Shown here: piece by piece, positions 36 to 28,494 of the stretch
Numbering within the stretch: the first letter of the stretch is position 1
Layout of the letters: each line of letters begins with the position of its first letter
Assembly (NCBI GenBank): GCA_028865615.1
Contig: JAGWJT010000004.1
Coordinates: forward strand, 1-35,667
Source of the DNA: Patescibacteria group bacterium
GTDB taxonomy: Bacteria > Patescibacteriota > Minisyncoccia > Phycocordibacterales > PALSA-1337
Direction of reading: 5' to 3'
DNA: 35,667 nt
The notes under the pieces: model-generated
What the model was told of the DNA's origin: nothing
Database searches by the model: none
Seen by the model: only the letters and a program-made list of their open reading frames with translations
Position numbers and translations under genes: made by a program

Positions 36-1253
36 CTATTCTCGGAGCGCCTCTATAACCCCCAAGACTCGCTTGATATCGGCCTTTTTGGTGAAGCGAC
101 CAAAAGAGAATCTGACGCTCGTCCGGCTATCGGCACCTATGGCTTTGAGGACATATGATTCATCCTGATCGCGCAGACATGAGCTCTTGGTAGACACGGC
201 TATGCCGGCGGCGTCAAGCTGCAGCACAAAGAATTCGTTGTCTATGCCGGGTATAGAGACATTGAGGATGTGTGGCGCACACGTAGCCGACGTCCGCGGA
301 TTCACGATCGGGTCCGGCGCCATCTTCACAAGACCTGCTAGAAATGAATCTTTTAATTGGCGCAGCCTGGCACACTCTCTTTCTCGATTTACTCCTGCCA
401 GTAGAAGCGCTTTAGCAAAACCCATAATACCCGGCAAGTTCTCCGTGCCGGAACGCAAGCCTCTTTCCTGCCCGCCGCCGTGCATTATCGGTTCTATCAG
501 CCCATCGTCCGTCACAGCGCGCCTGACGAACAAAGCCCCGACACCCCGTGGGCCATAGACTTTGCTGCTATCCAACGTCATCAAATCGACTCCTAGTTTT
601 TCAACATTCAGTTCATCGCACAGCGCGGCTTGGGCGGCATCGGTGTGCAGGAGGGGGTATTTGGTTGTTGGTAGTTGGTAGTTGGTTGTTGGTTGTTGGT
701 TGTTGGACCCCTTTCTCCATTGTCTTATGGTCTTAGCGATTTCGCGTATGGGCTGTATGGTGCCTATCTCATTGTTGACTGTCATAATGGAAACTAACAC
801 CGTCTCCGGCTTTAGAGCCTTTTTCAATTCATGGACATCTACGACGCCGTTCTGATTCACGGCCAACTGCGTCACTTCACAGCCAGCCTTCTCCGCCGCA
901 TGCGCCATCTCCATGATGGACGAGTGCTCGATATTGGATATTATCAAGTGCGGCTTTGCGGATCGGCCGGCGGCGCCGGTATTCATGCGCTTCCATGCGA
1001 CTTTCAAGACACCTCCAATGGCTATATTGTTCGCCTCTGTCCCACCGCCGGTGAAGACTACCTCGTCGGTATGGGCATGAATGAAACCGGCCACGGCGGC
1101 GCGCCCTTCATTCATGGCCCTCTTGGCCGCTACTCCCTCGCGATATATAGATGACGGATTGGCGTATTCCGTCGATGAATACCGCTTCATGACCCGCAAA
1201 ACTCGGGGATCTATGGGCGTCAATGAAGCATAATCCAGGTAAATCCTCTTCAT
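36..1253 (-). CDS. Cysteine desulfurase (NifS/IscS family, class V aminotransferase)
   Basis: 405 aa; MKRIYLDYASLTPIDPRV, GGTEANN, NNEIGTIQPI, HTDAAQA, SxKxYGPRGVGALF; contains a low-complexity in-frame insert NNQQPTTNYQLPTTKY. Confidence 0.95.
   Translation of the reverse strand: MKRIYLDYASLTPIDPRVLRVMKRYSSTEYANPSSIYREGVAAKRAMNEGRAAVAGFIHAHTDEVVFTGGGTEANNIAIGGVLKVAWKRMNTGAAGRSAKPHLIISNIEHSSIMEMAHAAEKAGCEVTQLAVNQNGVVDVHELKKALKPETVLVSIMTVNNEIGTIQPIREIAKTIRQWRKGSNNQQPTTNYQLPTTKYPLLHTDAAQAALCDELNVEKLGVDLMTLDSSKVYGPRGVGALFVRRAVTDDGLIEPIMHGGGQERGLRSGTENLPGIMGFAKALLLAGVNRERECARLRQLKDSFLAGLVKMAPDPIVNPRTSATCAPHILNVSIPGIDNEFFVLQLDAAGIAVSTKSSCLRDQDESYVLKAIGADSRTSVRFSFGRFTKKADIKRVLGVIEALRE
656..706. 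repeat. Heptanucleotide tandem repeat (GGTTGTT/GGTAGTT) x7 inside the cysteine desulfurase CDS
   Basis: Reads directly as ggtattt ggttgtt ggtagtt ggtagtt ggttgtt ggttgtt ggttgtt gg. Confidence 0.95.
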
Positions 1254-1278
1254 ATATTGAATATAGCACAGTATAATA

Positions 1279-1767
1279 GTGCGTATGTTAGATCAAATCA
1301 TATCAAATCCGTTAGCATTATCAGTGGTCATCCTGTCCGTGGCAGTCGTCGCCTTATTTATTCTTACGATAATCATGTGGCGGAAGCTCCATCGTTTCCT
1401 GGTGGGCAGCGGATCCGTGGACTTGGACGGCTCTATCCGTTCCGTATCCGCCGATCTGACTGACTTGAAGTCGTTCCGCAAGGAGCTCGAGGATTACTTG
1501 ACGACCGTAGAGAAGCGCCTCAAGAAAAGCGTCCGGTCGGTGCGCACAGTGCGTTTCAATCCGTGGCACGGCGCCGGTCTGGGCGGCGACCAGAGCTTCG
1601 CCACAGCCTTCATGGACGAGAACGGCGACGGCGTGGTCATCTCCACCCTATACTCGCGCGACCACGTGAGCATATTCGGCAAGCCTCTGAAGAAGCATGG
1701 GAGCGAGCACGAATTGTCGGACGAGGAGCGCCGCGCCGTCGAGGAGGCGAAAGTGGGGTTGGAGTGA
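1279..1767 (+). CDS. DUF4446-like membrane-anchored protein
   Basis: 162 aa; N-terminal TM helix, then VRSVRTVRFNPWHGAGLGGDQSFATAFMDENGDGVVISTLYSRD typical of DUF4446; start may be ATG at 1285. Confidence 0.8.
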   Translation: MRMLDQIISNPLALSVVILSVAVVALFILTIIMWRKLHRFLVGSGSVDLDGSIRSVSADLTDLKSFRKELEDYLTTVEKRLKKSVRSVRTVRFNPWHGAGLGGDQSFATAFMDENGDGVVISTLYSRDHVSIFGKPLKKHGSEHELSDEERRAVEEAKVGLE

Positions 1768-1770
1768 AGC

Positions 1771-1798
1771 ATCAAGGACCAAGATCCAAGGACCAAGA
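1771..1798. repeat. Intergenic heptamer repeat (atcaagg accaaga tccaagg accaaga)
   Basis: Read directly; immediately follows the DUF4446 stop codon. Confidence 0.85.
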
Positions 1799-2003
1799 AC
1801 CACGCCAAGCACTGCGCCAAGCGGTCATCATGCTCCTGCCGCAGCCACTTCATCTCAGAGAAGTGGCACTTCACCAAACTAAAGTGCCGCTGACCGGAGG
1901 ATGCTGGACATAGGTAAAAGATGGTCATGGAGGAAGTTAAAGAGGGGTTGAGATAAAAAGAATCGCACCGGCTGTTTGCCAGTGCGACTGTGCAGATTGG
2001 TAA

Positions 2004-2351
2004 TCATTTGGTCTTGTCATCCGCCTGAACTGTAGGCATGTCATTCAAGATTATCTTAAACGATTGACAGGACCTGTCGGAATTGAATTTCATGTGACCA
2101 AAGACCTGGACATTGAATCGTTCATTCAATTGACGGATAAAATCCAATGTAGTCTGTAATGTCATGTGTTCCCTTGATTGAATGATTACAACAAGATCAC
2201 CGACTTCTTGGGAAGCTTTAATATTGACAAGCTCGGACATGGACATCCCCCTTGCCTTGGCCTCTTCTCTTAATCTGTTAACGACTCGCTGTCTCAGCGT
2301 AAGGTTGCATTTGATTGTTTTTCCATCTGGATCAGTACATTCTCTCGGCAT
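2004..2351 (-). CDS. Small protein with ribbon-helix-helix-like segment, unknown C-terminal domain
   Basis: LTLRQRVVNRLREEAKARGMSMSELVN resembles an RHH; start set at MPRECTDPDG rather than ORF start 2408; AT-richer than neighbours. Confidence 0.5.
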   Translation of the reverse strand: MPRECTDPDGKTIKCNLTLRQRVVNRLREEAKARGMSMSELVNIKASQEVGDLVVIIQSREHMTLQTTLDFIRQLNERFNVQVFGHMKFNSDRSCQSFKIILNDMPTVQADDKTK

Positions 2352-2420
2352 AATTCCTCCATTGGTTGATATTTCTATTTCAATAGTGACCAGTGCCAAC
2401 CTTATCATATTTGATTATTC

Positions 2421-2449
2421 TTGTCAAATAAGATTTTGTCTGCTATATT
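2421..2449 (+). promoter_or_regulatory. Putative sigma70 promoter of infB
   Basis: TTGTCA (2421-2426), 17-nt spacer, TATATT (2444-2449), upstream of ATG 2469. Confidence 0.65.
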
Positions 2450-2468
2450 GAGAATCTGTCAAACTGCC

Positions 2469-4043
2469 ATGCCGAAAGACCAGCAAAACCTGGTTCCGCG
2501 TCCGCCTGTCGTCGTAGTGATGGGCCATATCGACCATGGCAAGTCGACGCTTTTGGACTATATCCGCAAAACCGAAGTGGTCAAAGGCGAAGCCGGCGGC
2601 ATCACCCAGCACGTTGGCGCCTACCAGGCCGAACACACTTCGTCGGACGGCAAGAAGCATAACATAACATTCCTGGACACCCCGGGCCATGAGGCGTTCT
2701 GCTCTATCAGAGAGCGCGGCGCTCAAGCCGCAGACGTGGCTATCCTGGTCGTATCAGCCGAGGACGGCGTCAAACCGCAGACCATAGAAGCCATGGGTGA
2801 GATACGAGCGGCAAAGATCCCTTTCGTCGTAGCTATAAACAAGATAGACAAACCCAACGCCGATATCGACAAGACCAAGACTTCATTGGGAGAAAATGAG
2901 ATATATGTCGAGGGTTGGGGCGGAGATGTCCCCTGGGTCGCGATATCGGCCCTGAACGGCAAAGGCATCCCTGAGCTGCTCGATCTGGTGATACTCACGG
3001 CTGAATTGGCCGAATTGAAGGCCGACCCTGCCGCCGCAGCTTCCGGCATAGTGATCGAGTCCGAGCTAGACACCCGCAAAGGCATCACCGCTACCCTGCT
3101 CATAAAGGACGGTTCTCTCGGTACCGGCTCGTTCGTGGTGGCCGAGGACGCGTATGCGCCTGTCAGATTCATCGAAGATTTCAAAGGCGACAAGATCGAG
3201 CCGGCCGGACCTTCTATGCCTGTCATCATATCAAGCTGGACCAAGATACCTTCATGCGGCTCTTTATTTGCGACGGTATCGACAAAGAAAGAAGCGGAGA
3301 GGATGATCCAGGATTCAAGATTCAAGATTCAAGAAGAGAAACGCGCGAAAGCCAAGCCTATCGAGGCGCACAAGAAGGCAAAGGGCGAGCTGGCCGCCGA
3401 TCAATTCGGCTACAAGAAAGGCGAACCGGAGACGGTCGTACTGCCTATCATCGTCAAAGCCGATACTATAGGTTCGCTCGACGGGGTCAGACATGAGCTG
3501 GACAAGATAAGACACGACAAGGTTCAGTTGAGGATCGTCTATGAAGGCATAGGCGATATCAATGAAAACGACGTCAAGCTGGCCGTGAGCGATCCAAGCA
3601 CGCTCTTGGTCGGCTTCAACGCCGAACCGGACAAGAAATCCGCGGCCATGATAGAGCGTTCACCTGTACCGATATCCGTCAGGTCGTTCAAGGTCATATA
3701 TGAGCTTACGGATTTCGTCAAAGAGACTTTCCTGGCAAAAGCCCCGAAAGAATTCGTGGAGCAGATGATAGGAAGGGCGAAGATACTAGCCGTGTTCTCC
3801 AAAGCCAAGGACAAGCAAGTAGTCGGCGGCAAAGTCGAGACTGGTTTGCTCGAGACAGGCAGCGAGGTCAGGATAATGCGCCGCGAGGCCGACATAGGCC
3901 GCGGCAAGATACGCGAGCTGCAACAGCAAAAAGAACGGGTTTCGGAAGTGCGCGAAGGATACGAATTCGGCATGATGATAGAGTCGAAGGCCGAGATAGC
4001 CGCCGGAGATCGCATAGAGGCAGTGAGGACAGTGGAGAAATAG
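2469..4043 (+). CDS. infB: Translation initiation factor IF-2 (short form)
   Basis: VVVMGHIDHGKSTLLDYIRKTEVVKGEAGGITQHVGAY, DTPGHEAF, NKIDKP; lacks the long N-terminal region; start reset to ATG 2469 because 2421 lies in the promoter. Confidence 0.95.
   Translation: MPKDQQNLVPRPPVVVVMGHIDHGKSTLLDYIRKTEVVKGEAGGITQHVGAYQAEHTSSDGKKHNITFLDTPGHEAFCSIRERGAQAADVAILVVSAEDGVKPQTIEAMGEIRAAKIPFVVAINKIDKPNADIDKTKTSLGENEIYVEGWGGDVPWVAISALNGKGIPELLDLVILTAELAELKADPAAAASGIVIESELDTRKGITATLLIKDGSLGTGSFVVAEDAYAPVRFIEDFKGDKIEPAGPSMPVIISSWTKIPSCGSLFATVSTKKEAERMIQDSRFKIQEEKRAKAKPIEAHKKAKGELAADQFGYKKGEPETVVLPIIVKADTIGSLDGVRHELDKIRHDKVQLRIVYEGIGDINENDVKLAVSDPSTLLVGFNAEPDKKSAAMIERSPVPISVRSFKVIYELTDFVKETFLAKAPKEFVEQMIGRAKILAVFSKAKDKQVVGGKVETGLLETGSEVRIMRREADIGRGKIRELQQQKERVSEVREGYEFGMMIESKAEIAAGDRIEAVRTVEK
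3305..3335. repeat. Heptamer repeat (GATTCAA) inside infB
   Basis: gatccag gattcaa gattcaa gattcaa gaa encodes MIQDSRFKIQE. Confidence 0.85.
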
Positions 4044-4075
4044 TTATTGGTTTATAGTTATTAGTGATTAGTCAA
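4041..4075. repeat. Heptamer repeat (TAGTTAT-like) x5 starting at the infB stop codon
   Basis: tagttat tggttta tagttat tagtgat tagtcaa; first TAG is the infB stop. Confidence 0.85.
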
Positions 4076-4115
4076 GCGCAAAATAATTATTTACAACTGC
4101 AAATCATAAACTGAC

Positions 4116-4463
4116 ATGTCCACCAAAGACCTGAAACTAAAGGAGATCATAAGAGAGCTGGCGGCCGAGTTCTTCTCGCGCCAATCGAATCGGACTTCCC
4201 TCATCACCATAACCGACGTGGAACTGCTGAGCCGCAACCGGAGAGCGCGGATCCTGTTCACGGTCATGCCTGAAAACCAGGAAGGAGCCGCTGTTGATTT
4301 TGCCCACAGACAATTGACGGATTTCAAACAATACGTGCAGGACAAATCCAGGATCGCCCGCATCCCCTACTTTGAAGTAGCCATAGACAAGGGCGAGAAG
4401 AACAGGCAGAGATTGGACGAAATAAGTCAAAAGTCTTCAATGTCCTTAAAGTCTATAAAGTAA
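4116..4463 (+). CDS. rbfA: Ribosome-binding factor A
   Basis: 115 aa; STKDLKLKEIIRELAAEFFSRQSNRTSLITITDVELLSRNRRARILFTVMPE, consistent with RbfA and with location after infB. Confidence 0.85.
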   Translation: MSTKDLKLKEIIRELAAEFFSRQSNRTSLITITDVELLSRNRRARILFTVMPENQEGAAVDFAHRQLTDFKQYVQDKSRIARIPYFEVAIDKGEKNRQRLDEISQKSSMSLKSIK

Positions 4464-4524
4464 AATGCTAGTATTGTGACTGGCTTTAGATCTTATGGGC
4501 TTGATGGGCTTAACAGACTAATCC

Positions 4525-4596
4525 GGCCACGTAGAAAAGTGGTAATTCAGCGGTCTGCAAAACCGCTATACGCGGGTTCGATTCCCGCCGTGGCCT
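4525..4596 (+). tRNA. tRNA-Cys (anticodon GCA)
   Basis: Acceptor GGCCACG/CGTGGCC; anticodon stem GCGGT/ACCGC with loop CTGCAAA; T-arm GCGGG TTCGATT CCCGC; no encoded CCA. Confidence 0.95.
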
Positions 4597-4630
4597 CTCG
4601 TAAAAAACATATGGTATACTGCTATGCAAT

Positions 4631-5326
4631 ATGGCGGATAACAAAGCTGGCTTTTGGCCAGGACTAAAATCCAGATATCGACCGCAATTCTCGGAGAAAA
4701 AGTACGTCTGGTCTTTGATCTTGGCATTTGCCCTTCTCGTAGCCAGTCTGGTCATAAATTATTTCGCGGCCATGTATGCCGTCGAGCGGGCCTCCAATCC
4801 CGTGGCTGACATCATACTGTCCAACATCCCGACTTTCGATGTGGACTGGGCTTTTGTCTACGGACCGATTATATTCTGGGTCATCATATCCTTATATTTG
4901 GTATACGATCCGAAACGCATCCCGTTTACCATAAAGAGCATCGCCTTGTTCATAGTCATAAGATCCGCCTTTATAACACTCACTCATATAGGACCGTTTC
5001 CGGATCATATAAGCCTGGACGTGGCCGGCATGGACCTGTTCGGCAGGCTGACGCGCGGAGACTTGTTCTTCGTATTCAGTGCCGGCGCCGATCTATTTTT
5101 CTCCGGCCATACCGGATTCCCATTTCTCCTGGCGCTAATATTCTGGAACGACAAGACTATGAGATGGTTCTGCCTGGTCTCGTCGGTATTCTTCGGAATC
5201 GTGGTGCTTCTGGGACATCTTCACTATTCTATAGACGTGGCTTCGGCATTTTTCATCACCTATACCATATATCACATAGCGATCAAAGCTTTTCCGACTG
5301 ACAAAAATAGGCTTTTGACGGCTTAA
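4631..5326 (+). CDS. Multi-pass membrane PAP2_C / sphingomyelin-synthase-like phosphatase
   Basis: 231 aa, about six TM segments; FFSGHTGFPFLLAL and GHLHYSIDVASAFFITY resemble the C-terminal PAP2 catalytic motifs. Confidence 0.7.
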   Translation: MADNKAGFWPGLKSRYRPQFSEKKYVWSLILAFALLVASLVINYFAAMYAVERASNPVADIILSNIPTFDVDWAFVYGPIIFWVIISLYLVYDPKRIPFTIKSIALFIVIRSAFITLTHIGPFPDHISLDVAGMDLFGRLTRGDLFFVFSAGADLFFSGHTGFPFLLALIFWNDKTMRWFCLVSSVFFGIVVLLGHLHYSIDVASAFFITYTIYHIAIKAFPTDKNRLLTA

Positions 5327-5444
5327 AATAAGTCTCTACTAGAGTTATGCACATGCGCCGGAACGGATGCGCTCGTGCGTATGTTAAAATACATACGAAA
5401 AGCGCTTCGAGGCTCTCGAAATAACGCCGCGGAAGCGATTTCTA

Positions 5445-6593
5445 TTGATGAATAATGTGCCTTTAACATCAGCGATACTCGCATTCGTCGTTGCGGTCAT
5501 AGCAGCGGTCTGGGGGTTGGTACGCGGCTGGACGTCCGGACGCCGGCGCACCGCTTCGCAGCTTACGTTGGATAGGCACGGCGGCAACCCGATCATATCT
5601 CCGCAAAAGCATATGGACTGGGAAAGCGAGGGCACCTTCAATCCCGCCGCCGTCCAAGACGGCGTCGGGTCCGTGCATCTATTTTACAGAGCGATCGGAG
5701 GCGACGGGTTGTCGCGCATAGGCTACGCTTCAAGCGAGGATGGCAAGAGGATCGTCTACAGGTCTCCTTATCCGGTCTTCAATCCCACTCCCGGATTTGG
5801 CCTGCCCGAACCGGAAACGGTCTCCGGGCCGCGCTCGTATGATATGGAACGGCATCCCTCCGGCGGCGGTTGGGGCGGCGCCGAAGATCCCAGGACCGTG
5901 CGCATAGACAACCGTATATACATGACATACATGGCCTTCGAAGGATGGGACAGCATGCGCATAGCCGTCACTTCGATATCCGAAGACGATCTCAAGAAGA
6001 GACGCTGGAATTGGAAAAAGCCGGTAGTTATATCACCGCCCAAGAAGCGCAACAAAAATTGGGTGCTATTCCCGGAAAAGATCCGCGGCAAATTCGCCAT
6101 ACTTCACGGACTATCGCCCAAGGTCATGATCGACTACGTGGACAGCATAGACGACTTCTACGGCAATAAACACATTCGGAGCGGCGCCGATCATGGAGGC
6201 TGGGGCTATTCCGACCCGAGCCGAAGAGGCAGATGGGATCACAGGATGCGCGGCACGGGAGCTCCGCCGTTGCGAACGGACCTGGGCTGGCTGGTGCTAT
6301 ACCATGCAATAGACGACCGCAACCAGAAAAATGTGATCGGCTACAACATCGGAGCCATGATCTTGGACGCAAAAGATCCTACAAAGGTATTGTATCGTTC
6401 TCCGGAACCGATCTTGACACCGAAGGCCCATTACGAAAATGACGGCAAGCCGGGTGTTGTATACGGTTCCGGCGCGATCATAAAGAACGGCAAGCTCATG
6501 GTCTATTATGGCGGCGGCGACAAGCACGTCTGCATAGCGGAGACCCCTATCCGGCCGCTGTTAGACTGGCTCACTGCATACGGTAAAGTATAA
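5445..6593 (+). CDS. GH130-family glycosidase/phosphorylase-like protein with N-terminal TM anchor
   Basis: 382 aa; N-terminal hydrophobic helix; NPIISPQKHMDWESEGTFNPAAV, GGAEDPRTVRI, GAPPLRTDLGWLVLYHAID; start likely ATG 5448. Confidence 0.85.
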   Translation: MMNNVPLTSAILAFVVAVIAAVWGLVRGWTSGRRRTASQLTLDRHGGNPIISPQKHMDWESEGTFNPAAVQDGVGSVHLFYRAIGGDGLSRIGYASSEDGKRIVYRSPYPVFNPTPGFGLPEPETVSGPRSYDMERHPSGGGWGGAEDPRTVRIDNRIYMTYMAFEGWDSMRIAVTSISEDDLKKRRWNWKKPVVISPPKKRNKNWVLFPEKIRGKFAILHGLSPKVMIDYVDSIDDFYGNKHIRSGADHGGWGYSDPSRRGRWDHRMRGTGAPPLRTDLGWLVLYHAIDDRNQKNVIGYNIGAMILDAKDPTKVLYRSPEPILTPKAHYENDGKPGVVYGSGAIIKNGKLMVYYGGGDKHVCIAETPIRPLLDWLTAYGKV

Positions 6594-6600
6594 TCAAGCA

Positions 6601-8505: not shown

Positions 8506-8531
8506 TGTTCGAGCGATGTTAAACTATAGCC

Positions 8532-10103: not shown

Positions 10104-10107
10104 AGAC

Positions 10108-15407: not shown

Positions 15408-16562
15408 TCAGGAATACAGGGCCTTGACGGCCTCTTCTGCCGTAGTCACACCCCAATCGACCTTCTCTCCGGCATCTTCGGACATGGTACGGAAGCCATT
15501 CGACAACGCATGCTCTCTCAGAACCGACTGCGAAGCCCCTCCGGCTATCAAGCCCCTCATCATATGATCGACTTCGCAGACTTCAGCTATGACCGACCGC
15601 CCGGAATAACCGGTCCCCCGACAGACTTCGCATCGATCCGCTCGACCGGCATCGCCGGCACACTTGTCACATATCCGGCGCACCAGTCTCTGACCGACGA
15701 TCAGTCGCAATGTAGCGGCCATGAGATAGCGTTCCACTCCCATGTCAGACAGGCGCAATATGGCCTCCAGAGCGGACACTGTGTGCAGAGTCGATAGTAC
15801 CAAGTGTCCCGTCAGGGCTGTGTGCACAGCCGTCCTAGCTGTCTCCTCGTCGCGGATCTCTCCGACCATGATGACGTCCGGATCTTGACGCACCGCCGCC
15901 CTCAACCCGGATGCGAACGACACGCCGTGCGATTGCGATATGTGCACTTGTCTGACACCGGGCACTTCGTATTCGACCGGGTCTTCCAAGGTCATGACGG
16001 AGAGCGGCATGGATGACTTTAGCCCGAGGAATACGCGCAAAGTAGTCGTCTTGCCGGATCCCGTAGGCCCCGTGACCAGGATGAGGCCGTTCGTAGCCAG
16101 CGCGGCACTGCTCATCTTGGCCGCATGGTCCGGGGTGAAGCCCAGAGCGGCGAAGCTCAAGCTTTCCGCAGCTTGGGCCGGCAACAATCTTGCGACAAAA
16201 TTCTCGCCCCTATACGTGGGCATGAATGAAATACGCACGTTGTACGGCCTGCCGCAAAGCTCGGCCATGAATCGTCCGTCCTGGGGCACGGCATGGATGT
16301 CGGTCCTGGCACCCGACATGATCTTGAGCCTGGCTATCATCTCCTCGTGTAAGCGCCTGGGCAATACCCCCGCTTGCTCGACCTCGCCGTCTATCCTGAA
16401 TCTGACCAGGATATCGTCGGCGCGGGGGTCTATATGGACATCGGAAGCATTCAAACGGGCGGCCCGCTCCAATATGCCGTCCACGGCGTCGACTGCCGTA
16501 GCCGGCTCTATACCTATGGCCGACTCGGACATGAATGGCTTCTTTTCATCCATAAATGGCAT
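15408..16562 (-). CDS. pilB: Type IV pilus/type II secretion ATPase (GspE/PilB)
   Basis: Walker A GPTGSGKTTTL, DPVEYEVPGVRQVHI, RQDPDVIMVGEIRDEETA, ALTGHLVLSTLHT, CDKC...CEVCRGTGYSGR. Confidence 0.95.
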   Translation of the reverse strand: MPFMDEKKPFMSESAIGIEPATAVDAVDGILERAARLNASDVHIDPRADDILVRFRIDGEVEQAGVLPRRLHEEMIARLKIMSGARTDIHAVPQDGRFMAELCGRPYNVRISFMPTYRGENFVARLLPAQAAESLSFAALGFTPDHAAKMSSAALATNGLILVTGPTGSGKTTTLRVFLGLKSSMPLSVMTLEDPVEYEVPGVRQVHISQSHGVSFASGLRAAVRQDPDVIMVGEIRDEETARTAVHTALTGHLVLSTLHTVSALEAILRLSDMGVERYLMAATLRLIVGQRLVRRICDKCAGDAGRADRCEVCRGTGYSGRSVIAEVCEVDHMMRGLIAGGASQSVLREHALSNGFRTMSEDAGEKVDWGVTTAEEAVKALYS

Positions 16563-16595
16563 TTTACTCCCCTAGTCCTCAAGAAACGTTCAAAA

Positions 16596-16637
16596 AAGTC
16601 TCAAATCCGGATAAAAAAAGTCTCAAATCCGGATAAA
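16596..16637. repeat. Two direct copies of AAGTCTCAAATCCGGATAAA, 22-bp phase
   Basis: aagtctcaaatccggataaa aa aagtctcaaatccggataaa; each has an ATCCGGAT palindrome (16605-16612, 16627-16634). Confidence 0.9.
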
Positions 16638-16680
16638 ATTTTTCCCGGCCGCCCAGAAAACCGCCCGAAACCCCTCAAAG

Positions 16681-17489: not shown

Positions 17490-17504
17490 TGTCTCGTTCC
17501 AATC

Positions 17505-17540: not shown

Positions 17541-17624
17541 CTTCCTGCCACATTTCATGCTTTACTTATGTCACCGACCGCCGGCTTGCCGCCACTGCGG
17601 ATCCCGCCGGCGGCTTTTAATTCA

Positions 17625-19421: not shown

Positions 19422-19460
19422 AAAAAACAACCCCACGCCGAAGCGCGGGGTGTTGAATTT
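19422..19460. terminator. Bidirectional intrinsic terminator between typA and the clpP-like gene
   Basis: aaaaaaacaaccccacgccgaagcgcggggtgttg; on the minus strand the hairpin is followed by a T7 run. Confidence 0.75.
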
Positions 19461-19473
19461 GTCGTAAGGTAGG

Positions 19474-19996: not shown

Positions 19997-20197
19997 AATT
20001 CACACTTTCTCCATTAAAACCAACTCTCCCTTTCTCCGCACTCACGGAGTAAGAAGCGTAAGATTTCGATGGAATCGCCTTTTCAAAGGGCGTGGGTTAA
20101 CTGACGTTTGTTTTACTGCAACTGGCCACAGGATAACATGAGAGAGGTGGTGGTGTCAAGGTTGACGACAGGAGATATCTTGCATTACAATGCTGGC

Positions 20198-20300
20198 ACA
20201 AACGGGACCTCTTGGAGGCCAACCGAGGTACCCTTCTCTGGAGCAATCCACTGGATAGAGGGAAGCCGCGAACCCCCGCATGACGGGGGTTTGAAATTTA
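20198..20300 (+). ncRNA. Candidate small structured RNA (unassigned family)
   Basis: TTGACG (20162-20167)-N18-TACAAT (20186-20191), then gggacctc/gaggtaccc stem (20204-20233), tgga-GCAA-tcca hairpin within a cttctct/agagggaag stem, and terminator hairpin aacccccgcatgacgggggtt (20271-20291); no convincing ORF. Confidence 0.35.
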
Positions 20301-20681
20301 TGCGTACACGAGCATATCGACAACACCCATAATAACTGGCATGAAATCATAGGTAGACATCCTGCGTATGTACCTGTTAAATCTCTTCGAACTCACTAGC
20401 CTTACCTGCGATAGCAGGATCGATTCATCCTTCATATTGAGATAATACCGATTATCCTTAATCTTTGTGCTCATAGGAAGGATCAGGGCTATCTTATTGT
20501 TGAATTTCTTGATTACTAGGACCGGTCTCTCAAAAAGATTATTTTTGCCGTCTTGTTCATCTCCGATATTGACCCCGAGCGAACACCACCATATATCCCT
20601 TTCGTGGAATATCCGCATACGCTCACTAATCTGCATGTTCTTCTTAACGGTATTCCATCTGTCAAAATCTTTTATATACAT
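20298..20681 (-). CDS. PemK/MazF-like toxin (endoribonuclease family)
   Basis: ERDIWWCSLGVNIGDEQDGKNNLFERPVLVIKKFNNKIALILPMSTKIKDNRYY...LLSQVRLVSSKRFNRYI. Confidence 0.75.
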   Translation of the reverse strand: MYIKDFDRWNTVKKNMQISERMRIFHERDIWWCSLGVNIGDEQDGKNNLFERPVLVIKKFNNKIALILPMSTKIKDNRYYLNMKDESILLSQVRLVSSKRFNRYIRRMSTYDFMPVIMGVVDMLVYA

Positions 20682-20703
20682 AACTTATTGAAATTGGACG
20701 ATT

Positions 20704-20729
20704 AAAAGACAGGTCTTCGGGACCTGTGA
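20704..20729 (-). terminator. Intrinsic terminator downstream of truB
   Basis: Minus strand: acaggtc-ccgaa-gacctgt followed by CTTTTAAT. Confidence 0.6.
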
Positions 20730-20761
20730 TTGGCAGATAGGGTGATTATACTCCTAAGGAT

Positions 20762-21502
20762 TTACTTCAAGCAAATGTTCGTCCTCTTTATCGACAGCGC
20801 GAAAGCGCTCGTGCCAGCATCTTTGCCCATCCTGTCCGCCAGTGCTCTCATATAAGTACCACTAGAGCATTTGACGCGGATTGTGACGACTGGAAATTCA
20901 CGTGGCAATGATTTATTGAATGATTGGCTCAAGATCTCATCCCATCGCTGCTTGATTGCCTCCTGCCTGAAATCGCCTTTAACTCGGTCTATGATGTCGA
21001 ATATACGCTTCTTCAATTCACCAGCTGTTATGGTCGACTCAGAGAACTTCTCCATAGAATAAATCTCCACTTCTTTTGTCGGCATCTCCTGCGGCAATCG
21101 TCCTTCGCGCGCCAACGTATGAAGCTGTTCCCCATTCACGGCCTTCGACGAATATGGCGGGTACGGCTGCGTAAGCTTGCCAACGTATTTAATGGGATCC
21201 AATCTTTCAATATTCCAATCTTTCAATTTTTCAATATTCCCAATCGTGACCAACCCGAGAGCATCATAACTGTCCGTGCTCACGCCGAAAACGATCTCCA
21301 CCTCATATTCTTTGTCCAAGCCCAGGAAATCGGCCTTGCACCGACATTCATCGCCGACTAGAACGAGTAGCTCCCCTTCAGCCATAGGGTCGAGCCTTCC
21401 GGCATACGTCATGGGTACATCGGCCGCTACGCCTCGCTCCACCCGACAACGCTCCAGAGCTTCGAGTGGCGTCTCTCCGAGATTTTTCCAGATTTTGAAC
21501 AT
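20762..21502 (-). CDS. truB: tRNA pseudouridine(55) synthase TruB
   Basis: KNLGETPLEALERCR, YAGRLDPMAEGELLVLVGDE, KEYEVEIVFGVSTDSYDALG, QPYPPYSSKAVNG, CSSGTYMRALADRMG. Confidence 0.9.
   Translation of the reverse strand: MFKIWKNLGETPLEALERCRVERGVAADVPMTYAGRLDPMAEGELLVLVGDECRCKADFLGLDKEYEVEIVFGVSTDSYDALGLVTIGNIEKLKDWNIERLDPIKYVGKLTQPYPPYSSKAVNGEQLHTLAREGRLPQEMPTKEVEIYSMEKFSESTITAGELKKRIFDIIDRVKGDFRQEAIKQRWDEILSQSFNKSLPREFPVVTIRVKCSSGTYMRALADRMGKDAGTSAFALSIKRTNICLK
21199..21245. repeat. 8-nt-period repeat inside truB
   Basis: ccaatc tttcaata ttccaatc tttcaatt tttcaata ttcccaatc; encodes IGNIEKLKDWNIERLDP. Confidence 0.75.
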
Positions 21503-21523
21503 GAAGCGGGTGGCGGCGGCTGG

Positions 21524-22501
21524 CTATCTCCAATGCGTCTTTATATATTCCTCGGCCTCGCTCATGGAAAACGGTTGAGTCGAGTTGCCAACTCGCACGA
21601 AGAATTCCTCATGCTTGTCGCCGTTGCGCAAATAGGCCGGCTTGTGGGCGTCGCCAACAGATACCACACATATGTCCTTGCCGCCGACCGATTCGAATGC
21701 CGGTCTCACGTACTTGGCGAAAGGCATGCCAATGGCCGTCTTGACCAGGGTTGTCAGATGATTCTCGAAGCCGTCTCTATTCTTCTTGGAAAGTGTCTTG
21801 TAATCGTCGTGTAGGCCGGTCACGCGTCCGGCATCGTCCACGCCTATGAGCAATGTCCCTCCGTCCGAGTTGAGGAAAGCCACTATAGTCTTCAAGACCA
21901 TTTTCTCCAATTCCTTGCTTATCTCGCCTTTCCTGGCATCGTACCGCATGGTCTGCTTGAATTCCACAAAGAGCCCCTCTCCGCTCCGGATGAGTTCCGA
22001 AGGATCTTTGGACAGGACTCTGCCGGTCGCTTCCTGGACCATGCTCTTTATCATATATATGTGCTCGTCATAGTCCGGCACGTTCCTGATCTTGGTTATC
22101 CGGCCGTTGCCGTGCTCGAATATGAGCGAAGCGTGATGGGTCATCATGCGATCGAGCGGAGACTGATATATCTCCACGGAAGTCACGGCCTTCAGGCTGA
22201 CGGATTTGTGATGGCGGAACAAGAGGCCCGACCTGCGGATGATCTCCCTGTCGGTTATCTCGAACCTGGTGAAATACCACTCGAAGAACAGGAAGGTTAT
22301 GTACACCAGCTGGAAGCCGGAGAATATGATGATCTCCAGGATATCGAAGCGGATATATCTGGACAGGCCGAGGCTTTGGTAAATGGCGCCGTAATTCTCC
22401 AGAAAAGAGATGACATACATGACGGCCGCCGCAAAGATCTCCATGACGATGACGTTGCGTATGAAGACCAGCGGACCCTCTCTGACCACTACTTTTCTCA
22501 T
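21524..22501 (-). CDS. Membrane bPH2-like domain fused to AlbA_2/Schlafen-type domain
   Basis: Two TM helices plus FEITDREIIRRSGLLFRHHKSVSLKAVTSVEIYQSPLDRM (bPH2/YdbS-like), then GLFVEFKQTMRYD...VAFLNSDGGTLLIGVDDAGRVTGLHDD...EEFFVRVGNSTQPFS. Confidence 0.75.
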   Translation of the reverse strand: MRKVVVREGPLVFIRNVIVMEIFAAAVMYVISFLENYGAIYQSLGLSRYIRFDILEIIIFSGFQLVYITFLFFEWYFTRFEITDREIIRRSGLLFRHHKSVSLKAVTSVEIYQSPLDRMMTHHASLIFEHGNGRITKIRNVPDYDEHIYMIKSMVQEATGRVLSKDPSELIRSGEGLFVEFKQTMRYDARKGEISKELEKMVLKTIVAFLNSDGGTLLIGVDDAGRVTGLHDDYKTLSKKNRDGFENHLTTLVKTAIGMPFAKYVRPAFESVGGKDICVVSVGDAHKPAYLRNGDKHEEFFVRVGNSTQPFSMSEAEEYIKTHWR

Positions 22502-22553
22502 AGTGGCATGATAGCACAATGCGCGCATCTTTCTTATCTGCTACAATATCGCC

Positions 22554-23816
22554 ATGTCGGAAAAGGCCAAAAAACTGTCTACCGAGCCATACAAGGGGGT
22601 CAGGGACTTCTTCCCCGAAGATATGGCCGTACAAAACTATATATTCGGCGTATGGCGCAAAACCGCCGAGAGCTTCGGCTATGAGGAATACGGCGCCTCC
22701 GTCCTGGAGCCGGCCGAGCTATACCGTGCCAAATCAGGCGAGGAGATAGTGAACGAGCAGACTTATACCTTCACCGACCGTGGCGACCGCGAAGTGACCC
22801 TGCGCCCCGAGATGACGCCTACCGTGGCAAGGATGGTCTCGGCCAAGCGCCGCGAGCTCGGTTTGCCGCTCCGGTGGTATTCGATACCAAACCTATTCAG
22901 ATATGAACAACCTCAGAGGGGTCGCGTCAGGGAGCATTGGCAGTTGAACGTAGATCTTTTCGGCGCCGATTCGCCGGAGGCGGACGCCGAGATCGTCATC
23001 CTCGCCAGCCGGATCATGGAGACCTTCGGCGCAAAGGATTCGGATTTTACCATCAAGATAAGCAGCCGCGCCTGGCTGGACAAGCTGTTTGATGACATAT
23101 CCGCCGACCTGGAAGGATTTGACGCCACTTTTGATAACAAGAACGCCTTGCTCAAGCTCCTGGACGTCAAAGCCAAAGATCCTGACAGATTCGACCGAGA
23201 GATAGTCAAACTGCACCCGAAACTATCCGGCGACTTCATCGCCAGGAAATCAAAAGCTTTGCAGACTTCGGAGGAAAAGTCATACGCCGACCTGGAAAAG
23301 CTTGTCGCCACTCTAGGAAATATGGGCATAAAGAACGTCGAGCTGGCCTTGACTGAGATAGTCCGCGGCTTCGACTACTATACTGGCATGATATTCGAGA
23401 TATTCGACACGGACCCGTCCAACCGCCGTTCGCTCTTTGGCGGCGGACGCTACGACGATCTGACCTCCCTGTTCGGCGGCGAGCGGATACCGGCCGTAGG
23501 CTTCGGCATGGGCGACTTGCCTGTCAAGAATTTCTTGGAGACACACGGACTTCTGCCGGCGCCAAAAAGCCGCACGGATATCCATGTCTGCACCACCAGC
23601 TCTGAATTGGTCGCCAAAGCCGAGGAACTGGCCACAAAGCTCCGCGCCAAAGGCATGAATGTATCGGTCAACTTGACGAGCAAGAAGATAGGCGACCAGA
23701 TAGCATGGGCCGACAAGCGCGGCATACCCAAAGTCGTCGTCGTAGGCGAAGAAGAAGCCAAGACCGGCAAATACAAGGCCAAAGAGCTTGCCACTGGCGC
23801 CGAGGCCCCATTGTGA
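22554..23816 (+). CDS. hisS: Histidyl-tRNA synthetase
   Basis: KGVRDFFPEDMAVQNYIF, TLRPEMTPTVARMV, LPLRWYSIPNLFRYEQPQRGRVREHWQLNVDLFG, GGGRYDDL, PAVGFGMG. Confidence 0.95.
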   Translation: MSEKAKKLSTEPYKGVRDFFPEDMAVQNYIFGVWRKTAESFGYEEYGASVLEPAELYRAKSGEEIVNEQTYTFTDRGDREVTLRPEMTPTVARMVSAKRRELGLPLRWYSIPNLFRYEQPQRGRVREHWQLNVDLFGADSPEADAEIVILASRIMETFGAKDSDFTIKISSRAWLDKLFDDISADLEGFDATFDNKNALLKLLDVKAKDPDRFDREIVKLHPKLSGDFIARKSKALQTSEEKSYADLEKLVATLGNMGIKNVELALTEIVRGFDYYTGMIFEIFDTDPSNRRSLFGGGRYDDLTSLFGGERIPAVGFGMGDLPVKNFLETHGLLPAPKSRTDIHVCTTSSELVAKAEELATKLRAKGMNVSVNLTSKKIGDQIAWADKRGIPKVVVVGEEEAKTGKYKAKELATGAEAPL

Positions 23817-23839
23817 TCATTCGTAGCATTCGTGCGATT

Positions 23840-23941
23840 ATTCGTAGATTCGTATCATGTCTTATTCGTAGCATTCGCATAAATTCGTAGATTCGTATCA
23901 TGTCTTATTCGTAGCATTCGCATAAATTCGTAGATTCGTAT
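23840..23941. repeat. 43-bp tandem repeat, about 2.4 copies
   Basis: attcgtagattcgtatcatgtcttattcgtagcattcgcataa at 23840-23882 and 23883-23925, partial at 23926-23941. Confidence 0.95.
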
Positions 23942-23950
23942 TATATATTC

Positions 23951-24526
23951 ATGCGCCGCATAACTTTCGACCTCGAGACGAAGAACGTATTCCAAGACAC
24001 CGGTTCGAACGATCCGGCTTCTTTGGATATGTCGGTCGTATGCATCCATGATTCCGCCGACGACAGCTACAGAAGCTTCCTGGAACAGGACTTGGGCGGT
24101 CTGTGGCCTATCCTCGAAGAGGCTGACATCTTGATATCTTGGAACGGAGACCACTTCGACATACCGATCCTGAACAAATACTATCCCGGCGACCTGTCAA
24201 AGATCAAAAGCGTCGATCTCATGAAGGAGATGCAGGCTGTCCTCGGCAGGCGCCTGAAGCTCGACACCGTGGCCAATGCCACCCTGGGCTCGGCCAAAAG
24301 CGGCAACGGTTTGGACGCCATAGAATGGTGGAAGAACGGCGAAGTAGACAAAGTCATCCGCTATTGCATCGATGATGTACGCTTGACCAAAGAGTTGTAC
24401 GAATACGCTATAGACAACGGGCATCTCAAATATCGTGACAACGGTACCATCAAGGAACTGCCGCTCCAAACGGCCGATTGGGATGTTCCTGCCGGTGCGG
24501 CCATGACTTATACGTTGCCTTTCTGA
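23951..24526 (+). CDS. RNase H-like 3'-5' exonuclease (YprB/DnaQ-like superfamily)
   Basis: RRITFDLETKN, DILISWNGDHFDIPIL, YCIDDVRLTKELYEYA (DED-type exonuclease motifs). Confidence 0.8.
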   Translation: MRRITFDLETKNVFQDTGSNDPASLDMSVVCIHDSADDSYRSFLEQDLGGLWPILEEADILISWNGDHFDIPILNKYYPGDLSKIKSVDLMKEMQAVLGRRLKLDTVANATLGSAKSGNGLDAIEWWKNGEVDKVIRYCIDDVRLTKELYEYAIDNGHLKYRDNGTIKELPLQTADWDVPAGAAMTYTLPF

Positions 24527-24529
24527 AAG

Positions 24530-24666
24530 CTAGCAAACGGAGGGAAACATGCCTCCTCGGAAGCGTTCGGAGCCTTGCAAGGCTCCTCACTCGGTTCTCG
24601 GCGATTTTCCTGCTGGAAAATCGCCTGCGAATGTTCCTCGAAGGCATGTTTTCCTCCGTTTGCCTA
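24530..24666. repeat. Long nested inverted-repeat element with two internal hairpins
   Basis: Outer arms ctagcaaacggagggaaacatgcc / ggcatgttttcctccgtttgcctag; inner ggagcc-ttgcaa-ggctcc and ggcgattttcc-tgct-ggaaaatcgcc. Confidence 0.85.
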
Positions 24667-24709
24667 GTCCATGGTACAATATGCCCATACAATAAATATC
24701 ATCAATACC

Positions 24710-25477
24710 ATGGATCAACAAAACTCCCGCTCATTCATAGGCATACCAGGCGCAATCATCGTAGCAGCCGCCATCATAGCCGTAGCCATCATATGGACCC
24801 AGCAGAAACCTTCTGTGGTTCCGGCCGCAGATTCAGGCTCGGCAGCGCATACTCTGCCGCAGATCAGCATGAAGCCCGTATCGGCCGGTGATCACATATA
24901 CGGCAACCCGAACGCCCCCGTCAAGATAGTCGAGTATTCGGATCCTTCATGCCCGTTCTGCAAGATGTTCAACCCCGTCATGGAAGACATCATGAGCCAA
25001 TACGGCCCGTCCGGACAAGTAGCCTGGATATACAGGCAATTCCCGCTGGACAAGCCCGATCCGAACGGCAACGTGCTCCATCCCCTGTCCGGGACCCAAG
25101 CTGAAGGCTTCGAGTGCGCCGCTTCGCTCGGAGGCAACGATGCATTCTGGAAATATGAGAAGGCTTGGTTCGACGCTTTTCCGGACAACGGCGCCGACGA
25201 AGCGACTTCTCTAGACCAAAGCCAGATGTCGACAGTCGCCAAGTCAGCCGGCTTGGACCAGAACGCTTTTGACAGCTGCGTGGCCAGCGCCAAATTCCAA
25301 AACGCCATAGAGGCCCAATACACCGACGGCATCAATGCCGGAGTATCCGGCACTCCGTTCATAGTGGTCCTGACTCCTTCAGGTTCCAAGATACCCCTGT
25401 CCGGCGCGCAATCATTTGCCACGATGAAGACCACCATCGATACCTTGCTGTCTGCGGGGACAAGCACCGCACAGTAG
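24710..25477 (+). CDS. Membrane-anchored DsbA/BdbD-like thiol oxidoreductase
   Basis: N-terminal TM; VKIVEYSDPSCPFCKMFNPVMEDI (CxxC), GVSGTPFIVVL; start set at MDQQNSRS. Confidence 0.85.
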   Translation: MDQQNSRSFIGIPGAIIVAAAIIAVAIIWTQQKPSVVPAADSGSAAHTLPQISMKPVSAGDHIYGNPNAPVKIVEYSDPSCPFCKMFNPVMEDIMSQYGPSGQVAWIYRQFPLDKPDPNGNVLHPLSGTQAEGFECAASLGGNDAFWKYEKAWFDAFPDNGADEATSLDQSQMSTVAKSAGLDQNAFDSCVASAKFQNAIEAQYTDGINAGVSGTPFIVVLTPSGSKIPLSGAQSFATMKTTIDTLLSAGTSTAQ

Positions 25478-25521
25478 TTGATCGACCAATCGGTCAATTG
25501 CGATTAACTGTCGATCGACTA

Positions 25522-28494
25522 TTAATAACCGCTCGCTGAACTTAGATTGCACCACTCGCAATCCTGTTCCGAGCAAGTCCTGCCGGCGATCTCGCCGCTC
25601 CAGACGCTCGATATCAATTCTTGGATCTGCCCCTTTACCGCTTCGATATCAGCCGGCACGATCGGCAATAAAACGATCGGGCAACGGCCTTTTTTGTCCG
25701 GAGACAAGAATACCAGCGCCGGCGATATCTTCTTGCCGTGCTTGCGCCGGTCGCCTTCCAGCAGTAGGCGGTAAAATACGAGCTGGCGGAAATAGTCGCC
25801 GGACGAGTTCTTGGTCTGGCCTTTTATCTCGTTCGCCGACATGCCCTCACGGGTCTTGTAGTCGAAGACTTCGACAGCGTCGCCGTGCTCCACGACCGCA
25901 TCGAGCTTGCCGTGGATGGGTATGACCGTCTTTTGACCGTTGAATGAGCCCTCGAATACGGACTCGACCCAGCGTTCCGTGGCGATGTCCGCATCCGATC
26001 CGTATGCACTGAAATGCGGCAGGAGCGCCTTGGCCACTATCGGCGCATTTTCAAACAATTCAGCCTTGACGAGCTCCTTGTCCGCAGACGACAGGAATGA
26101 TTCGTGCAGATGATCCGTTACCGAGCTCTTGATCGTCTCTGTTATTGTTACCACGGCGTCTAAATCAGGCTTTGATCGATCGTTTTGCATTTTGTATTTT
26201 GTATTTTGTATTTGCTTCCATACGTCTGCCACGGCTTCATGCATGGCTGTTCCTTTCTCTGCGGCCACGGACGGGGCCTGCGGCAATTTCAGGACGCTCA
26301 AGTACAAGAATTTGTTCGGACATTCCAGGAAATGGTTGAGGGCCGTCACGGACAAGCCTGAATCCGCCAGGACCCGCTTGGCCAGGTCCACGATCTTCGA
26401 CGGGCCCCTCGGTCCGGCGGCGCTATCGTGCCGCGGCGCTCCGACGGCCGTCCGAGGCAAAGTCTCGGCCGAGACGCTGTCCGGATCGAGCTCGCTTATG
26501 AAGCGCAGCGGGGTCATAGATCTGCCGTCTGATTCTTCCAGAGAGGTCATGACGATACAATGCTTCTTTGCTCTGGTAAGAGCCACATAGAAAAGGCGGC
26601 GGACGTCTCGTATGTCGTCCAAGCCGGCGCTTTTCCTAGGCATGACGAACGACGAACCGCGGTTGCGGCCTATCCAGGCTTCTTCCGTGGCATACGGCAT
26701 AAATACGTAGTCAAATTCCAGGCCTTTTGAGCCGTGGGCGGTCATAGCGCGGATGGGCAGATCCGGGGCGCCTACGGACACTTTGACGGTCTTTGATTCG
26801 GCCGATTGCCGATATGCCAACATGGCTTTGACGAGCTCAATCGGACTGACGATGCCGCCGTTCCGCGCCAACGATTCGGCCAGAGCCACGATGCCGCGCC
26901 ATACATGCACATACGACGGATCTCCGGCTGTCAGGCCGACGAAACCGGATTCTTCGGCGGCGGAGATGATGAAGCTCACCGGGCCGTCTTCTAGCATCTT
27001 CCTGCGGAGACGGACCAGGCCGGGCAATCTCTCATCCAGATCGGCCGGCTTGCCGGAGCGCAACAGCTTGATGAGCTCGGTTGACCGGTCAAAATCCAGG
27101 CCCCACATGCCGGCGGCCAGAGTCTTGCCCAGAGAATCCGTCCTTGACAGGTCATTTATATACTCCAAGAGCTCAAAGAATACGGCGCCGACGGGATGAT
27201 GGAATATGTCTATGCTCCGCTCGGACGAAACGGCGATGCCGTCGGATTCCAGGAGACGGATGACGCGCTCGAGGTCGCGATTGCGCCTGGTGATGACCGC
27301 CACCGTCGCCGCCGGCTCGCCCTCCGATATGTTTTTGAGCCGCTCGACCATATATCGTTCTATAGCCGCGGTATTCTCGCCTGTGACGACGTCGACCGGC
27401 CGTCCCGCCTCGTCGGAACCGGACTTCAGCTCTATGCGCAATTCTCCATGTTCGTCGCCTTCATAATTGTTCTCGATAACCGAAAAAGAAGCGTCCAGGA
27501 TATTCTGGTGGGAACGATAGTTCGTATCAAGCGATATGACCTTCATGTCCGGCCAGCGCTTGCGGAGGGCCAGGAAATTCTCGACGGATGCGCCCTGGAA
27601 GCGATATATGGCCTGTTTCTCATCGCCCACGATAAAGACGTTCGGTACGTCGAAAAATTGGGCTATGGCTTTGATGATGAGATTCTGGGCATCGTTGGTA
27701 TCCTGATGCTCGTCTACGAGGATGTACAGAAAACGCTCCTGTATCAAGCGCAGGAATAGGTCGTCCTTTTCCATGGCTTTCAGGAGCTCGATTATCAAGT
27801 CGTTGAAATCCGTGCGTTTCTCTTTGTACTTGGTCTTTTCATATGCGTCATAGACGTCGGCAAACAGGATGGTGCGCTCGCATTTGGCTATCTTCTCCTC
27901 GGCTTCCGCCTTCAATCTGCCTTTGGTTGCACCACGTGTGGAAATAGAGCTCTCGTCATGCCTGATCCGTTCTATCTCATCCTTGGCATACCGGCGCACC
28001 ATCTCGGGTGTCATGGCTTCCTTCTTGGCATCGTCGATGGATTTCAATATGGCCAGGACGTATGCGTCCGGTTTTGCCGCGGGACGCAGGGCCTTGAATC
28101 TCGGCTCCGATATGATGCCGCGTATCATCGATTCCTGCTCGACATCGGTCATATTGGTGAAGCCTTCAATATGCAAGAAATGGTCGGGGTATTCGGCTAT
28201 CATGGCGGAAGCGAAGCTGTGGAACGTATGCAAAGCAACTTCGTGAGCGCGATTGCCGATGATATCGCGGAGCTTACCGCGCATGGCTTTGACGCCGGCG
28301 TCTGTATAGGTGATAGCCAGGATGCCGTGCGCCGGGGTGTCCGTCTGGCGCAAGATATTGGCGATACGGAGCGTCAATATGGTGGTCTTGCCCGTGCCCG
28401 GACCGGCTATGACCATGACGGGTCCGTCTATGGAGTCGACCGCTTCACGCTGGGCTTTATTCAGCTTCTTGTATTTCTCATCAAAAACCGGCAT
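25522..28494 (-). CDS. UvrD/PcrA-like superfamily 1 helicase fused to PD-(D/E)XK nuclease, probable Fe-S type
   Basis: GPGTGKTTILTLRIANIL, VDEHQDTN, VGDEKQAIYRFQGA, TAHGSKGLEFDYVF, VALTRAKKH; C-terminal GKLDAVVEHGDAVEVFDYKT plus ECPNKF and RTCSEQDCEWCN. Confidence 0.92.
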   Translation of the reverse strand: MPVFDEKYKKLNKAQREAVDSIDGPVMVIAGPGTGKTTILTLRIANILRQTDTPAHGILAITYTDAGVKAMRGKLRDIIGNRAHEVALHTFHSFASAMIAEYPDHFLHIEGFTNMTDVEQESMIRGIISEPRFKALRPAAKPDAYVLAILKSIDDAKKEAMTPEMVRRYAKDEIERIRHDESSISTRGATKGRLKAEAEEKIAKCERTILFADVYDAYEKTKYKEKRTDFNDLIIELLKAMEKDDLFLRLIQERFLYILVDEHQDTNDAQNLIIKAIAQFFDVPNVFIVGDEKQAIYRFQGASVENFLALRKRWPDMKVISLDTNYRSHQNILDASFSVIENNYEGDEHGELRIELKSGSDEAGRPVDVVTGENTAAIERYMVERLKNISEGEPAATVAVITRRNRDLERVIRLLESDGIAVSSERSIDIFHHPVGAVFFELLEYINDLSRTDSLGKTLAAGMWGLDFDRSTELIKLLRSGKPADLDERLPGLVRLRRKMLEDGPVSFIISAAEESGFVGLTAGDPSYVHVWRGIVALAESLARNGGIVSPIELVKAMLAYRQSAESKTVKVSVGAPDLPIRAMTAHGSKGLEFDYVFMPYATEEAWIGRNRGSSFVMPRKSAGLDDIRDVRRLFYVALTRAKKHCIVMTSLEESDGRSMTPLRFISELDPDSVSAETLPRTAVGAPRHDSAAGPRGPSKIVDLAKRVLADSGLSVTALNHFLECPNKFLYLSVLKLPQAPSVAAEKGTAMHEAVADVWKQIQNTKYKMQNDRSKPDLDAVVTITETIKSSVTDHLHESFLSSADKELVKAELFENAPIVAKALLPHFSAYGSDADIATERWVESVFEGSFNGQKTVIPIHGKLDAVVEHGDAVEVFDYKTREGMSANEIKGQTKNSSGDYFRQLVFYRLLLEGDRRKHGKKISPALVFLSPDKKGRCPIVLLPIVPADIEAVKGQIQELISSVWSGEIAGRTCSEQDCEWCNLSSASGY
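26183..26210. repeat. Heptamer repeat (TTTTGTA) x4 inside helicase CDS
   Basis: ttttgca ttttgta ttttgta ttttgta; encodes IQNTKYKMQN on the minus strand. Confidence 0.9.

Follow-up and report, generated by a model that had tools for sequence, protein, structure and literature searches.

The small genome of a Patescibacteria group bacterium (GenBank assembly GCA_028865615.1) carries many short tandem arrays built on a 7-nucleotide (nt) unit. They lie between genes and, in frame, inside conserved genes, where they occupy variable protein loops and linkers, and the sequence of the unit differs from one genome to the next. The stretch under study, called the window here, has 35,667 nt and is the whole of contig JAGWJT010000004.1 (our contig C6) of a genome of 710,699 bases in 55 contigs, of which 29,017 bases are N. 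Based on its infB relatives, the genome is that of a Parcubacterium near Candidatus Taylorbacteria (Paceibacterota, candidate phyla radiation or CPR). The arrays form unit families, each with a conserved core and one to a few free bases; the register is 7 nt, sometimes 8 or 9 nt, and often the units are joined into 14- or 16-nt dimers.

The prominence of period 7 is clear from the whole genome. We counted 57 degenerate period-7 arrays, compared to 0, 0 and 0 in three order-3 Markov control sequences, and periods 4 to 6 and 8 were close to background genome-wide. Perfect runs with 14 or more matches numbered 23 at period 7, with one at period 6 and only two homopolymers at periods 1 to 5. An earlier note on the window had proposed that short repeats invade reading frames, and the excess over control sequence agrees with this. 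However, that note placed periods 7, 8 and 9 on an equal footing, whereas 8 and 9 turned out to be minor families, and it described a pattern of the window, whereas the arrays occur throughout the genome and in relatives. The relatives are 60 to 72% identical at the protein level (the closest about 70%), and our sample of 40 of their genomes, with at most 20 kb from each and 698 kb in total, was taken near housekeeping genes and is not random. It contained 17 degenerate period-7 arrays and 3 perfect runs, which indicates that the trait is shared and that the present genome is rich in arrays.

Inside genes, period 7 is also the leading class. A simple codon-model script predicted 624 genes with approximate edges (coding share 83%), and 32 of the 57 period-7 arrays are gene-internal and in frame, in 24 of these 624 genes, compared to 8 arrays of period 6, 3 of period 9 and 7 of period 12. 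Selection for the reading frame alone would favor 6, 9 and 12, yet period 7 leads, and therefore period 7 stems from the generating process. The encoded peptides are mostly hydrophilic, such as DSRFKIQDSRF, KSQKSKVKSQ, and QNSKLKTQN.

Sites in the window were scored by the best period among 5 to 11, the number of matches, and the count expected per window-sized order-2 Markov sequence. The arrays are the following.

656-706, minus strand: CCAACAA/CCAACTA array (reverse complement TTGGTTG/TTGGTAG), in frame in a nifS-like aminotransferase gene (36-1253, minus strand); 40 of 44 matches at period 7, 0 expected.
1771-1802, plus strand: CCAA+NNN array (CCAAGGA CCAAGAT CCAAGGA CCAAGAA), intergenic, directly after the open reading frame 1279-1767.
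3303-3334, plus strand: GATTCAN array (GATCCAG GATTCAA GATTCAA GATTCAA GA) in infB (2421-4043), encoding MIQDSRFKIQE; 3305-3335 has 21 of 24 matches at period 7, 0 expected.
4041-4075, plus strand: degenerate TTATTGG/TTTATAG/TTATTAG/TGATTAG run in the gap between infB and an rbfA-like gene, beginning on the infB stop codon.
4426-4463, plus strand: AAAGTC+NNN run of period 9 across the 3' terminus of the rbfA-like gene (4116-4463), its stop codon included.
21198-21245, minus strand: period-8 array with a 16-nt dimer, ATTGGAAT/ATTGAAAG, in truB (20762-21502, minus strand), encoding IGNIEKLKDWNIERLD; 16-mer with 90% match by Tandem Repeats Finder (TRF).
23815-23941, no strand assigned: ATTCG-family element (ATTCGTAG, ATTCGCATAA; 43-nt higher-order repeat, 2.8 copies) that fills the gap from hisS (22554-23816) to the next co-directional gene (23951); TRF score 205.
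26181-26216, minus strand: CAAAATA array in a UvrD/PD-(D/E)XK (AddAB-like) gene (25522-28494, minus strand), encoding KQIQNTKYKMQND; 26183-26210 has 20 of 21 matches at period 7, 0 expected.

Seven of these sites had been described as near-perfect. Four of them exceed chance when taken alone (656-706, 3305-3335, 26183-26210, and 21199-21245, which has 27 of 39 matches at period 8 with 0 expected). The other three do not, namely 1771-1798 (15 of 21 matches at period 7, 1.7 expected), 4041-4075 (19 of 28 at period 7, 0.5 expected), and 4426-4463 (18 of 29 at period 9, 1.55 expected). Weak as they are alone, two of these fit unit families that have further members in the genome: 1771-1802, for which a 14-nt dimer is the better description (TRF score 53, 93% match), belongs to the CCAA+NNN family that recurs as a TTGG+NNN array at C7:30514, and the AAAGTC+NNN family is also present at C5:5723, C25:4980, and C31:7822. 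The strongest repeat block in the window, the ATTCG element right after hisS, had been omitted from the earlier list. What was said about the reading frame did hold: the four sites inside the nifS-like, infB, truB, and UvrD/AddAB-like genes keep it, two sites are intergenic, and 4426-4463 enters the stop codon of the rbfA-like gene. The sole match in an Rfam search of the window was a tRNA at 4525-4596, with no known structured RNA at the arrays.

All nine in-gene arrays that we compared with orthologues (in the nifS-like, infB, truB, and UvrD/AddAB-like genes, and five in ileS) lie in hypervariable loops or linkers, and the array residues are not common to the orthologues; by the tests that the earlier note set, both outcomes favor its view. 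At the nifS, infB, truB, and UvrD/PD-(D/E)XK sites, the orthologues vary in both length and sequence. The nifS-like array encodes SNNQQPTTNYQLPTTKYP, approximately residues 183 to 199 of a protein with a Pfam Aminotran_5 match; it is a variable loop among the 29 orthologues compared, and it is modelled as a loop from helix 169-184 to strand 201-205 with a pLDDT of 62 to 64, where the mean of the model is 87. The infB array falls between the EF-G_D2 (192-269) and IF-2 (310-419) domains and is modelled as the start of a linker helix running into a disordered segment (298-320). Orthologues are hypervariable at this site, and two of them (L096 and L128) have 3.9 copies of CAGTCGG there. The truB array is a hypervariable loop, again among 29 orthologues. 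The CAAAATA array forms a loop inside the PDDEXK_1 domain (714-985), where the closer orthologues are mostly gapped; at this position L247, with a 78% identical protein, has 4.1 copies of TTTTGAC.

The presence of a different heptamer in the matching loop of an orthologue was seen often, in the ileS, infB, and UvrD cases. For ileS, the present genome has five arrays, each in a variable loop, and the matching loops of relatives hold four AAATCTC arrays in G022, of which three were called at period 7, two of AGAGATN in G007, two of AAAAGTC in G017, AAAAATC in G019, and AAAATCC in G021. One ileS array merges into conserved ancestral codons (D-x-x-L) and others are found where orthologues have KFKI or KVK, which is consistent with a role for microhomology at these sites. 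In one G007 array, as we read the sequence, the free base is never T in the phase where T gives an in-frame TAG. As a separate observation on this gene, ileS at G000:C2:25333-28908 (L023:5333-8908) holds a histidine phosphatase domain (PF00300, E value 7.7e-31) at residues 529 to 699, between the two catalytic halves. Phosphoglycerate mutases are matched by this segment in a PDB search as well, and relatives of similar length may share the domain.

The units form genome-specific dialects. Two arrays were taken to share a unit when the units differed by at most 1 mismatch in any rotation or on either strand. Sharing was found for 34% of within-genome pairs and 6.5% of between-genome pairs (53 arrays, 23 relatives), a difference reached in 0 of 2000 permutations, which treat the arrays as independent. 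When only within-genome pairs at different loci were considered, it was 27% of 26 pairs. Loci fetched by the AGAGATN pattern were excluded from this test. AGAGATN itself, predicted from two ileS loops to be a word of G007, turned up in that genome only, out of 53 searched. GATTCAN has 43 matches in the present genome and 0 to 5 per relative, and AATTAG arrays are frequent in the present genome, G023, and G019 and absent from most other relatives.

GATTCAN is the main family. Its 31 arrays mostly have four units, position 7 is free (72 A, 33 G, 24 T, and 4 C), the right flank is nearly always GA(A), and the units have no G-tract. All 15 in-gene copies are in the sense orientation, in all three phases; the reverse complement gives TGA in every frame. 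Adjacent units are independent at position 7 (identity of 0.39, with 0.39 expected), but units two apart agree more often (0.63 versus 0.39 expected; p=0.0004). Raised identity at lag 2 with lag 1 at chance indicates steps of 14 nt. Clusters of the AATTAG family (AATTAG plus 1 to 3 bases) number 13; most (11) are paired, and they have the core AAATAATGAC..GGGATTTATTTAG partly in common. The ATTCG family has 15 clusters, including the element in the window. Inside genes, 11 of 13 GATTCAN clusters are single arms, whereas 9 of 11 between genes are paired (p=0.003). Most intergenic arms pair with their reverse complement into long hairpins, the majority of -20 to -44 kcal/mol. Paired elements often occupy the whole stop-to-start gap; 30 of 34 elements of the three families lie between co-directional genes, whereas of all gaps 257 of 380 are co-directional (p=0.011). 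Coevolution of the hairpin arms found no support when cross-pairing was tested, but the test is weak, since arms of short copies were split at their midpoint. In contig C34, two GATTCAN hairpins separated by 11.5 kb (C34:145-268 and C34:11635-11731) share GAAGCAA, an unusual second unit, and have similar loops, as if one had been copied from the other. Outside the heptamer families there is a small palindromic dispersed repeat, GCAGGAATTTTCCAGCAGGAAAATTCC, with six identical copies (C24:15563, 18217, 18728, and 21899; C25:7920; C40:10619).

To explain these patterns, we tentatively favor a genome-specific copy-paste of short tracts that is filtered by selection; the pattern is observed, and from it we infer the copying step. 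Tracts of about 14 to 30 nt would be copied from one array to other sites of the genome, possibly by ectopic microhomology-primed template switching or by short-patch conversion. Purifying selection would then remove copies that break the frame, add stops, or strike structured parts, so that the surviving copies would be those in linkers and between genes, and one dialect would slowly displace another in shared loops. This explanation is favored by the prominence of period 7 genome-wide and in genes, the dialects, the AGAGATN prediction that held, the heptamers in matching loops, the anatomy of GATTCAN (mostly four units, free position 7, in-gene copies all sense and in every phase), the lag-2 identity, the contrast between single and paired arms, the placement of hairpins in co-directional gaps, and the signs of microhomology in ileS. 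Several points weigh against it. No insertion event was seen between near-identical strains, the closest relatives being at about 70% protein identity, and at 60 to 72% identity insertion is not separable from replacement. The usual four units and the fixed polarity of the hairpins look more like the copying of a defined element than like loose template switching, many families per genome require several founders, and the 7-nt register has no explanation in the copy-paste model. One proposal, made for heptamer repeats generally, traces this register to a polymerase-contact length (PMC4679880, PMC4692102). Alternatively, although we consider this unlikely, a sequence-specific process may write genome-specific heptamer words, each a conserved core with one free base and often repeated four times, at many chromosomal sites and overwrite the dialect over time. 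If this were true, the process would keep supplying in-frame peptide loops to essential proteins.

Simpler sources were considered as well. Chance is ruled out genome-wide by the controls, while three of the seven window sites alone are compatible with it. The earlier note had set ordinary triplet expansion aside, rightly so: expansion of triplets or heptads at the protein level is ruled out by the 7-nt period, the use of all three reading phases, and the presence of these units between genes as well. An assembly artifact is unlikely, as many relatives with independent assemblies also have arrays in ileS, infB, and further genes. Ordinary replication slippage would make each array grow in place by one-unit steps. 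This would equalize neighboring units, whereas adjacent GATTCAN units are independent at position 7, and it would disrupt essential genes such as ileS. The copy number is also mostly four, and a given unit recurs at unlinked sites of one genome and not in its relatives. Heptanucleotides are the commonest class of long simple sequence repeats (SSRs) in many bacteria (PMC4679880, PMC4692102), there are several unit sequences per genome, and some arrays resemble the ancestral codons at the site (KVK, KFKI), all of which would suit slippage, but we regard it as an unlikely source.

It is also unlikely that a transposase moves a palindromic element with heptamer arrays as arms, similar to Rickettsia palindromic elements (RPEs), miniature inverted-repeat transposable elements, or repetitive extragenic palindromes, with the in-gene copies being half elements. 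Such an element would explain the dispersed copies with a fixed arm order (CTAATT..AATTAG; GATTCA..TGAATC) the inner core kept by the AATTAG family, and the matching layout in G019 and G023, and RPEs likewise insert in frame in genes (PMC10969869). However, arms differ in unit number and spacer length, those of one copy do not covary, and many unrelated families coexist. The Y1 transposase (PF01797), the sole type searched, is absent from G023 (99% complete and rich in AATTAG) and has one copy in the present genome. Target duplication is not demonstrable, the relatives being too distant for an empty-site comparison. Selected signals that protein loops tolerate seem improbable to us, whether they are repeated binding sites for a DNA- or RNA-binding protein (for instance DNA-uptake-like words that differ by species) or RNA hairpins between cistrons. 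The conserved core with its free position, the species dialects, and the stability of the hairpins in co-directional gaps (mostly -20 to -44 kcal/mol) would fit, but several unrelated dialects exist in one genome, the arms lack compensatory pairing, and the in-gene copies track protein tolerance. Very improbable is the addition of heptamers at breaks, like interstitial telomere repeats, by a reverse transcriptase that copies a short RNA template. The words are genome specific, with a free base at the unit end, and the present genome has two RVT_1 matches; however, there are several unit families per genome, and no RVT_1 match was found in G022 (96% complete, AAATCTC at four places) or in G018 (99% complete, with an ATACCTC array). 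For both the Y1 transposase and the reverse transcriptase, gene presence does not track array richness, and they were rejected as the cause.

Among known systems, the closest relatives of the arrays are the bacterial heptanucleotide repeats, also called long simple sequence repeats or short tandemly repeated repetitive sequences. Head-to-tail 7-nt units above chance and dispersed units are found here as well (31 GATTCAN arrays, 13 AATTAG clusters, and 15 ATTCG clusters). A mainly intergenic location, which is usual for that class but not a strict definition, is not (32 of 57 are gene-internal), and the identical neighboring units of slippage-type SSRs are not seen in GATTCAN. As far as cited in PMC4692102, Calothrix PCC 7601 has dispersed tandem heptanucleotides with several units per genome and an over-representation of 7 nt. 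The likeness lies in these same traits; the differences are that the present genome is a reduced CPR genome and that genes hold over half of its period-7 arrays, in frame and replaced between species in matching loops. The GGGAATC and GGGGA(C/T)T repeats of Xanthomonas and Nostoc are degenerate, prefer four units, lie mostly between aligned genes, and in Xanthomonas include some inverted pairs, all shared with the arrays described here, but only 7 to 11% of the Xanthomonas heptamers are intragenic, and the repeats were explained by G-quadruplexes with four G-tracts (Rehm et al. 2015, PMC4692102). GATTCAN prefers four units without a G-tract in each, and the in-gene share is larger. This argues against G-quadruplex formation as a general cause of the dominance of 7 nt. 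The P6b stems of the Nostoc trnL intron resemble the arrays in their degenerate heptamers in a hairpin stem (class I TDNGATT, class II NNTGAGT), 14-nt insertions, and replacement of one class by another at one site (PMC4476775), but they concern one intron locus, whereas the present arrays are genome-wide and in protein genes. TAACTGA of marine Beggiatoaceae also forms many direct repeats per genome with a patchy distribution, but it is a single unit that does not vary and that mostly precedes start codons (MacGregor 2015, PMC4679880), whereas here there are many dialects and in-gene copies.

The likeness to RPEs drawn in the earlier note stands only for in-frame tolerance in conserved genes. 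RPEs are palindromes of about 150 bp with a conserved peptide, inserted in frame at tolerated positions (PMC10969869), whereas the copies inside genes are single tandem arms of about 30 nt (11 of 13 clusters), with many unrelated unit families per genome. The arrays are thus not RPEs, although they resemble them in working. In open-licence papers on repeats of Patescibacteria and Parcubacteria, we found nothing on such arrays. The heptamer class itself is known; new are the large in-gene share, the turnover of dialects in matching protein loops, and the preference for four units without G-tracts.

Two other features of the window stood out. A perfect 22-nt direct repeat, AAAAAAGTCTCAAATCCGGATA, is present in 2.1 copies at 16592-16638, upstream of a pilB-like gene (15408-16562, minus strand). 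At 28578-29324 (minus strand) a secreted protein has, judged by eye only, a C-terminal hydrophobic segment and a basic end resembling a PEP-CTERM anchor. An anchor of this type is unusual in a CPR genome.

A period that is not a multiple of the codon would be expected to be rare in essential genes, yet in this genome such a period makes up the leading class of repeats there, and the word found in a given protein loop changes between species. The arrays bear directly on the question of why 7-nt units dominate the long repeats of bacteria. They also offer a natural comparative system for the spread of short tracts in very small genomes and for one way in which conserved proteins gain loops and linkers.

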